Of a stretch of 48,084 bases of DNA, positions 3,254-48,084 are shown one piece after another. Position 1 is the first letter of the stretch. Each line of letters opens with the position of its first letter. This stretch comes from an uncultured Prevotellaceae bacterium (GTDB lineage: Bacteria; Bacteroidota; Bacteroidia; Bacteroidales; Bacteroidaceae), in contig CAMWJL010000006.1 in the NCBI GenBank assembly GCA_947174565.1, positions 1-48,084 of the forward strand, in the 5' to 3' direction. The position numbers were made by a program, and so were the translations under genes. The notes under the pieces were generated by a model. The model was not told where the DNA came from and did not search any database. It saw nothing but the letters and a program-made list of their open reading frames with translations.

Positions 3254-3461
3254 ACTGAAATATTCGACATATTAAAAATTTAGTCACTAAAATTTCTCGA
3301 AACCACCAAATGACAAGGCATTACCCTCAGCTCGGGAAGAAAATCATCCCGAACTGGAGTGTTTTATACACAGACAGAGACCTCAGTACACATCCTCCCC
3401 AAAAGGCTTCCCTGACCGTCCACTTTTCGCCCCTCGCCTCATCCCCTCAAAAAGCACCCCG

Positions 3462-3539
3462 AAATCGGAGTCCCCGACTCCGACTGACCGATGTCCCCGA
3501 CTCCGATTGGTCGGAGTCGGGGACATCGATTTAGAGGCT
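3462..3539 (+). repeat. Triple-19 palindromic repeat, family I, copy 1
   Basis: The element begins with AAA and has three 19-nt units at 3465-3483, 3488-3506 and 3511-3529, joined by the 4-nt linkers CTGA and TTGG. It ends with TTTAGAGGCT. Unit 2 (CCGATGTCCCCGACTCCGA) and unit 3 (TCGGAGTCGGGGACATCGA) can form a stem of 18 bp with a TTGG loop. Unit 1 is itself nearly palindromic. A C-rich stretch to the left (3428-3460) resembles the same side of copies 2 and 3. It lies between the 5' region of the fimbrillin genes and the 3' end of the S46 peptidase gene, and no reading frame explains it. Confidence 0.9.
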
Positions 3540-3621: not shown

Positions 3622-3673
3622 CAAACAAAAGGTCTTGCCGACGAATATGTTCGTCGGCAAGACCTTTTGTTTG
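3622..3673 (-). terminator. 24-bp perfect hairpin terminating the topA-to-S46 operon
   Basis: Arms 3622-3645 and 3650-3673 are perfectly complementary over 24 bp with a TATG loop. The hairpin sits 37 bases after the S46 peptidase stop codon. The 3' side of the stem on the minus strand ends CCTTTTGTTTG, giving a U-rich tail within the stem. It is the only strong hairpin at the end of the five-gene minus-strand run, so it is the likely operon terminator. Confidence 0.75.
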
Positions 3674-12166: not shown

Positions 12167-12348
12167 AACAAAATATCTTTCCCTGTATATATATAATGTG
12201 TAATTTTTTGAAAAAAGCAACATACGCACGTTTTCGCCACTTGGCAAGACTGTATTGCCTCCATTTGGGACAGAAACAGTGCTTCCATTCCCCGACAGAA
12301 AGGTCAAACACGAGCCAAAAGGCACTCCTGTTTGTAATGCGGTTTCAC

Positions 12349-12427
12349 AGCCTCTAAATCGATGTCCCCGACTCCGACCGACCGATGTCCCCGACTCCGA
12401 TTGGTCGGAGTCGGGGACATCGATTTT
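12349..12427 (-). repeat. Triple-19 palindromic repeat, family I, copy 2
   Basis: In minus orientation this is AAAA, units at 12423-12405, 12400-12382 and 12377-12359, linkers CCAA and TCGG, and the tail TTTAGAGGCT followed by GTGAAAC. Unit 2 reads TCGGAGTCGGGGACATCGG, the reverse complement of unit 2 in copy 1, and the linkers flip with it. Units 1 and 2 form a stem of 18 bp or more. The element lies in the divergent gap between topA and the GH3 gene, about 190 bases upstream of the topA promoter box. About 30 bases past the tail also resemble the same side of copy 3. Confidence 0.9.
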
Positions 12428-28461: not shown

Positions 28462-28517
28462 AAACCAATCTCTGTTTGGGATAAGAAAGCCCTTCTCCTC
28501 CCCCTAAATATACCCTG

Positions 28518-28596
28518 AAAATCGATGTCCCCGACATCGACCAATCGGAGTCCCCGACATCGGTTGACCGATGTCGGGGACTCCGATTTAGAGGCT
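28518..28596 (+). repeat. Triple-19 palindromic repeat, family I, copy 3
   Basis: AAAA is followed by units at 28522-28540, 28545-28563 and 28568-28586, linkers CCAA and TTGA, and tail TTTAGAGGCTGTGGAA. Unit 1 (TCGATGTCCCCGACATCGA) is palindromic apart from its three central C. Units 2 and 3 are exact reverse complements over 19 nt, extendable to 21. Compared with copy 2, unit 2 has the same outer halves but the central CCC replaces GGG. It lies between convergent deoC and the polyprenyl synthase gene. Confidence 0.9.
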
Positions 28597-28659
28597 GTGG
28601 AAGCGTACTGCACATAGATGTATCTTGTGACTGATGTCTGTTTCTACTTGTGAACAACA

Positions 28660-28701
28660 GCGACGTCCCCAACTACGATTGGTCGTAGCTGGGGACGCTG
28701 C
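28660..28701. repeat. Two-unit relative of the palindromic repeat with changed stem
   Basis: Two 19-nt arms (GCGACGTCCCCAACTACGA at 28660-28678 and TCGTAGCTGGGGACGCTGC at 28683-28701) flank the same TTGG loop found in family I. Relative to family I the stem bases differ, and several changes are matched on the other arm (CTCC/GGAG to CTAC/GTAG). A few positions remain unpaired. It lies 63 bases beyond copy 3 and 30 bases from the end of the polyprenyl synthase gene. Confidence 0.75.
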
Positions 28702-48031: not shown

Positions 48032-48084
48032 AAAATCGATGTCCCCGACTCCGATTGGTCGGAGTCGGGGACATCGGTCGGTCG
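48032..48084 (+). repeat. Triple-19 palindromic repeat, family I, copy 4 (cut by window end)
   Basis: AAAA is followed by unit 1 (TCGATGTCCCCGACTCCGA, 48036-48054), linker TTGG, unit 2 (TCGGAGTCGGGGACATCGG, 48059-48077), linker TCGG, and the first three bases of unit 3. Units 1 and 2 form an 18-bp stem. Its unit order equals copy 2 read in its own direction, except that linker 1 is TTGG rather than CCAA. The tail is outside the window. Confidence 0.88.

Follow-up and report, generated by a model that had tools for sequence, protein, structure and literature searches.

Short palindromic elements of a fixed three-unit plan in one Bacteroidales genus, probably mobile and with unit sequences probably overwritten in place

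The repeats described here are probably short non-autonomous palindromic mobile elements, similar to the Rickettsia palindromic elements (RPEs) and to MITEs, whose unit sequence is overwritten in place and which are found here in one Bacteroidales genus. They were recognised in a stretch of 48,084 nt (hereafter the window), which belongs to contig 6 of G000, a draft genome of 2.81 Mb with 98% completeness. The core of the element is 65 nt long and consists of three imperfect 19-bp dyads, joined by 4-nt linkers and set between CCTCAAAA/TTTTGAGG ends. The four copies lie where the original prediction had placed them, three being complete and the fourth cut by the window end. A covariance model, for which copy 1 supplied part of the input, recovers the three complete copies and the cut one, and its next match in the window has an E of 0.71. 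The 4-nt linkers, the AAA(A)/TTT ends and the partly shared flanks are also as described there, and the unit TCGGAGTCGGGGACATCGG has 11 matches in the window at 3 mismatches or fewer, where 100 dinucleotide shuffles gave a mean of 0.01 and a maximum of 1. The features of the window are as follows:

3457 to 3537, plus strand: copy 1, an 8-nt end, the 65-nt core (3465-3529) and an 8-nt end
3465-3483, 3488-3506 and 3511-3529, plus strand: the three units of copy 1, with linkers CTGA and TTGG
3347 to 3459, plus strand: A-type (C-rich) flank of copy 1, profile match 50.6 bits
12351 to 12431, minus strand: copy 2, ends and core (12359-12423), minus-strand linkers CCAA and TCGG
12265 to 12353, minus strand: B-type flank of copy 2 (GAGGCTGTGAAA...), profile match 61.0 bits
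12429 to 12538, minus strand: A-type flank of copy 2, profile match 48.1 bits
12255 to 12526, minus strand: insertion separating topA from a GH3 gene, its limits estimated from orthologous sites and motif positions (ends within about 10 nt either way)
28514 to 28594, plus strand: copy 3, ends and core (28522-28586), linkers CCAA and TTGA
28592 to 28671, plus strand: B-type flank of copy 3, profile match 46.8 bits
48028 to 48084, plus strand: copy 4, core from 48036, unit 3 cut by the window end

The element had been given a size of about 78 nt. The copies of that size are real, but the conserved part is larger: the G000 core is bordered by two flanks, A (C-rich) and B (GAGGCTGTGAAA...), each of about 90-110 nt, which are linked to the orientation of the core and belong to the element too. 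In the G000 stretches, profiles of these flanks match only beside cores and in a fixed order; at L054, and weakly at L066, the B flank is matched on both sides, and copy 1 has lost its B-type flank after GAGGCT. Two other hairpins lie close to window copies. Just past copy 3 (28660-28701) is a diverged two-unit hairpin, GCGACGTCCCCAACTACGATTGGTCGTAGCTGGGGACGCTGC, with a TTGG linker as in the element, perhaps a decayed relative; downstream of copy 1 (3628-3673) is a long perfect hairpin, AACAAAAGGTCTTGCCGACG...CGTCGGCAAGACCTTTTGTT, which remains a hairpin in the related genome G155 and is probably a terminator.

The 13-mer GTCGGGGACATCG occurs 98+87 times in the 2.81 Mb of G000 (reversed control, 0), and by extrapolation from these 185 matches, at roughly 1.6 per copy, the genome would hold about 100-120 copies. 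In 59 stretches fetched around listed matches, to which the window and a locus read before were added, we sampled 64 copies, 4 of them truncated where a contig or the window stops. All but one of the 60 uncut copies have an exact 65-nt core, the exception (L079) having two units only, and the 19/4/19/4/19 spacing seen in the window is conserved here as it is in 40 of 40 copies from seven genomes of the same genus (see below). Three main half-unit forms, TCGGAGTC, TCGATGTC and CCGATGTC, make up 334 of 354 half-units in G000, around GGG or CCC centres. Copies are probably under-counted, since four G000 contigs (C1, C2, C23 and C31, at L001, L045, L102 and L103) start inside a core or within about 35 nt of one and the window itself ends in a core at 48084; the genomes compared are likewise drafts, some with contigs that end in copies.

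When genomes were scanned for three dyads at a fixed step without regard to their letters, the same plan emerged, with other units, in other species of the genus. The unit types are:

F2: CCGACGTCGTCGACGTCGG
F3: TCGATGTGTCCCACATCGA
type of G141: CCGTACCCGTCGGGTGCGG
F1: CGGTGTGACTCACACCG, with a 24-bp period and a less certain kinship

All 40 copies fetched from seven genomes (G141, G169, G113, G081, G063, G014 and G098), located by translated similarity to query copies, follow the exact 65-nt plan. As the letters of the unit differ between species, the family trait is the architecture and not the sequence. The scan proved too strict at 6 or more of 8 pairs per unit (2 matches in G000, 6 in G155). 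At 19 of 24 pairs summed it gave 40 matches in 0.33 Mb of G000 and 21 in 0.74 Mb of G155, 9 of the latter being other tandem arrays, and none in shuffles of either. At 18 of 24 pairs there were 8 matches in 0.37 Mb from 20 genomes of other genera, somewhat above chance given 6 in the shuffled 0.74 Mb of G155; these were set aside, their units being mutually dissimilar by eye. G155 has further tandem arrays at L120:14070, L123:18706, L150:1928, L151:14267 and L154:10540, in which palindromic units such as TGTTACAAnTGTAACA are 23 nt long, and three G155 contigs (L121:62, L154:113 and L156:62) have in common a hairpin, GGAGCCCTCCACATCATTTTGTGGAGGGCTCC, near their ends, perhaps another assembly-breaking repeat.

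The search of related genomes with a covariance model, which the original prediction had called for, matched 14 of 301 genomes of the family, 13 of these being among the 21 of the genus (G000, G014, G063, G081, G098, G113, G127, G141, G155, G169, G183, G212 and G263). Of the 280 family genomes outside the genus, one gave a doubtful match (G077, E 2e-4); this element-like sequence (L327:1501-1582), from another genus, is bounded by CCTCAAAA...CTTTTGGGG and has yet another type of unit. Among 393 genomes drawn from the order, only the window's own matched (0 of the 392 others). Copy numbers from these searches are floors: under strict filters the best 15 candidates per genome were scored for the family and the best 11 for the order, and weak types (G183, G077) may be missed. 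An 18-mer of the window's unit occurred in one of 201 genomes of the family, that of the window, in a draw without G201, and an exact-pattern scan of genome contigs, which may omit the window's own genome, gave 28 stretches, all from G201 (MAG WFMB01, 'Bacteroidales bacterium MAG021'), whose TopA is 97% identical to that of the window; G000 is placed in the Bacteroidales by way of this close relative. The G000 flank profiles (about 90 nt) had no match in other species with default filters, the best E for the B flank with filters off being 2.7, and short flank pieces such as TTCCACAGCCTC recur there by eye. Viral contigs scanned with the window-type and F2 patterns yielded 0 and 0 stretches.

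A gapless alignment of 64 copies over 81 columns, taking in the window, F2, F3 and G141 types, has 12 invariant columns, which are the six unit-end CG dinucleotides. Across the dyads, 84.2% of 2048 cells are paired and 282 cells show a double change, whereas slid partners reach no more than 44.3% and 88. Three of five covariation measures support the dyads and two are near the shuffle level: as many pairs with a double change were reached in 26 of 500 shuffles, and the number of pair types, attained in 144 of 500, is not exceptional. The end helix between CCTCAAAA and TTTTGAGG is paired in 75.0% of cells and thus forms inverted ends as in MITEs. As single-stranded DNA, six copies fold far better than their shuffles (z -4.4 to -9.4), with stems of 8 bp; the folds mostly pair neighbouring units, three separate hairpins not being the predicted state. 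Among G000 cores, 29 of 926 unlike pairs lie one inversion apart, compared with 3 for a plain-reversal control. These linker and whole-core inversions, together with the strong hairpin folds, point to palindrome extrusion.

An A-tract, hairpins and a T-tract are also what a bidirectional transcription terminator or an RNA element would show, and the AAAA...TTTT ends and the strength of the hairpins are consistent with this. The same could be said of the uneven mismatches in unoriented copies (27 G.T and 44 A.C in G141, 24 and 14 in G113), but the clearly oriented copies of G000 have 66 G.T vs 56 A.C. The mapping of copies to genes, also proposed in the original prediction, gave a flat context for 59 G000 cores: 10 lie between 3' ends, 10 between 5' ends, 14 in 5'-3' and 10 in 3'-5' gaps, 13 inside ORFs and 2 are undecided, as judged with a rough gene caller (the 13 ORFs are mostly short; core-free gaps 5, 7, 7, 7). 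This flat context and the lack of strand preference among mismatches in oriented copies argue against terminators, as do the copies within ORFs and the lack of an Rfam match in the window, and we consider a terminator or RNA function very unlikely.

Orthologous sites exist in both filled and empty states. At the topA/GH3 site a block of about 270 nt is present in G201 and missing as a whole from G155 and G169, and at locus L049 G201 lacks about 277 nt that are present in G000. Of 59 G000 sites compared with G201, 23 had a flank match and 11 of these stayed undecided; the 12 comparable on both sides comprise 11 filled and 1 empty (L049), three having been scored absent automatically and the element then being visible at two. 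A missing block could also be a deletion. No clean target-site duplication was readable from the site alignments, whose exact ends stay approximate. Orthologous cores of G000 and G201 are 95% identical (median of 14 pairs, a fifteenth having no core to compare), against 64% and 69% for the 100 nt next to them on either side, and in 14 of 14 pairs the core exceeds both flanks; these G201 copies were found by exact core pattern, which biases the comparison. In a separate analysis the pairing of loci L060/L025 is doubtful. Such conserved cores, with their invariant CGs and fixed spacing, are what one would expect of a selected chromosomal binding array, in which three dyads 23 bp apart are bound by a putative nucleoid or segregation protein whose specificity shifts between species. 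Under this explanation, however, the sequence would need to shift at tens of sites together; moreover, close species differ in which sites are filled and which are empty, some copies lie in frame within genes, and 8 of 21 genomes of the genus had no match with the strict filters. We commit to a selfish, RPE/MITE-like element moved in trans by a putative enzyme, and regard the bound array, its main functional rival, as improbable.

The element had been called intergenic, which does not strictly hold, since some conserved ORFs contain related copies in frame. These are (by Pfam names) a GSCFA gene, a glycerate kinase gene, a PrmC-type methyltransferase gene, where G141 alone of 14 genomes has a copy, and a fourth gene with no Pfam match. 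The GSCFA gene carries an insert of about 87-93 extra nt in 7 of 14 genomes, the other 7 being empty, and the type at this position is that of the window in G000 and G201, F2 in G155, G169, G081 and G063, and F3 in G014. In the glycerate kinase gene, matched in 11 of 14 genomes, the G141 type occupies one position and F2 the same position in seven genomes; in the fourth gene, the window type is found in G201 and F2 in G155 and G169. Pairs of unlike type occur at intergenic sites too, placed less exactly. In these samples, the four sites common to G000 or G201 and to G155 are all of different type (two of them involve F1, and one was matched on a single side).

Different types at the same position may mean that resident cores were overwritten, or that different types struck one strongly preferred target in separate lineages and cores were never overwritten. 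Independent insertions of this kind, which we hold to be rather unlikely, would agree with the mixing of filled and empty genomes on the TopA tree, where GSCFA presence takes 3 changes and 38 of 500 shuffles do equally well, and with most unlike-type intergenic pairs, which agree only to 16-103 nt. Against them, (i) at three coding sites the positions coincide to about 1 nt on one side or both, the CCTC ends are similar and the arms can be aligned, (ii) G000, G201, G155 and G169 form a clade on the TopA tree (support 100/99) and all four sampled members are filled at GSCFA, with two types, and (iii) the empty alleles show, by eye, no obvious conserved target. At the GSCFA site, G000 and G155 share 84-90% identity along 300 nt to one side; identity is 66% across the core plus 75 nt to its other side and 84-85% in the following 150 nt; the divergence thus reaches about 75 nt past the core on one side. 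For this pair, in-place overwriting is the simplest account and parallel insertion its main rival. In the same gene, a comparison of G014 with G081 (L251 and L249) shows a recombination breakpoint some 150 nt away from the core, where identity changes from 74-78% to 97-100%. The odd G014 core sits in a divergent tract wider than itself, as ordinary recombination would leave. Within the F2 group, glycerate kinase orthologues (1-13 differences) are often closer to each other than to paralogues of their own genome; continuous gene conversion is rejected on this ground for that group, and any replacement would be episodic.

We propose that the elements insert between genes and in frame within genes, and that their history may be described in three steps. 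The core would extrude as hairpins or a cruciform, as suggested by the folding and by the inverted linkers and cores; a trans-acting enzyme would then read the dyads and move the element; finally, a new unit sequence would arise, spread, and overwrite resident cores between their conserved ends, leaving one dialect per lineage at its old sites. For this last step, different types at one position are observed, and the overwriting itself we infer from them. No mobilising enzyme was found. The widest form of this proposal is put forward tentatively: architecture and site would be inherited, while a new unit sequence would replace the palindromic core in place and throughout the genome, much as if the old dyads were cut by a homing-like system and new ones copied in between the conserved ends. 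If true, it would imply concerted replacement at dozens of dispersed loci, in-frame ones included, for which we know of no precedent in bacteria. Short palindromic repeats are common in bacteria and, lacking their own enzyme, raise the questions of how they spread and why their sequences differ between species. As close relatives here offer one strict plan, several sequence dialects, alleles both with and without the element, and copies in frame within genes, insertion, overwriting and effects on proteins become testable together.

The original prediction regarded the element as defined, REP/BIME- or MITE-like in concept and without a named family, and as far as tested this holds: Rfam has no match at gathering score in the window, and among openly licensed papers we found none describing the three-palindrome plan. 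Like MITEs, the element is short and multicopy, has inverted ends and is absent from orthologous sites of relatives. The BOX elements of Streptococcus are also built of left, core and right modules but, compared by description, differ in that the number of core modules varies. Another modular repeat, BrickBuilt, likewise has its host within the Bacteroidales. As far as the available part of its description goes, this MITE of Porphyromonas gingivalis is reported to be intergenic and shares with our element a 23-nt period and a leader and tail (PMC4596501); its unit AGAYCATARTATCCTCTCRTRTG, however, is a direct repeat without spacers, variable in number and with IS5-type ends, and identity is rejected on account of the palindromic 19-mers, spacers and fixed unit number found here.

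REP/BIME elements moved by a Y1 (RAYT) transposase come close in other respects, with the 8-bp stems and strong single-stranded folds of the six copies. In the accessible portion of one study, GTAG- and CGTC-tagged REPs have stems of 8-9 bp and intragenic copies, and the CGTC REPs, which lack a dedicated transposase, are present in Bacteroidetes (PMC3733652). Tagged REPs nevertheless carry an unpaired GTAG or CGTC (TGTC, CCTC) tag at the palindrome end, whereas here units are joined by 4-nt linkers only and CCTC lies outermost in the element as a whole, facing GAGG; they are mostly singletons or head-head dimers, and 59 of 60 uncut copies here are trimers with 3-nt centres and matched outer ends. 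For a REP with a RAYT partner, a Y1 gene flanked by the repeat is expected. The search for such a partner, suggested in the original prediction, gave no Y1_Tnp match in G000 or G201. At E 0.001, matches were found in 9 of 22 genomes (6 over the cut-off), that is 5 of 14 with elements and 4 of the genus's remaining 8; three matches are strong (E below 1e-20), those in G183, G239 and G295, and of these genomes only G183 has elements. A Y1/RAYT partner is not supported, as no Y1 transposase tracks the elements and 9 of 14 element-bearing genomes gave no match, and a REP/BIME origin of this kind seems to us highly improbable.

The RPEs are likewise close in description. According to the sections of the source at hand, they are short palindromic repeats of several sequence families, found between genes and in frame in ORFs (PMC10969869), and RPE-4 and RPE-6 are CGTC REPs in the part seen of the REP study (PMC3733652). 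On these partial accounts our element resembles them in having several sequence types and intergenic as well as in-frame copies in conserved genes; the differences, again by description, are that RPEs belong to another phylum and that here the spacing is fixed at 19/4/19/4/19 and unlike types occupy one orthologous site. In the comparisons made here, REPs and BrickBuilt each fail a defining feature, and RPEs share features by description. A three-palindrome plan whose cores share sites and differ in type points to a new way of moving and overwriting DNA.
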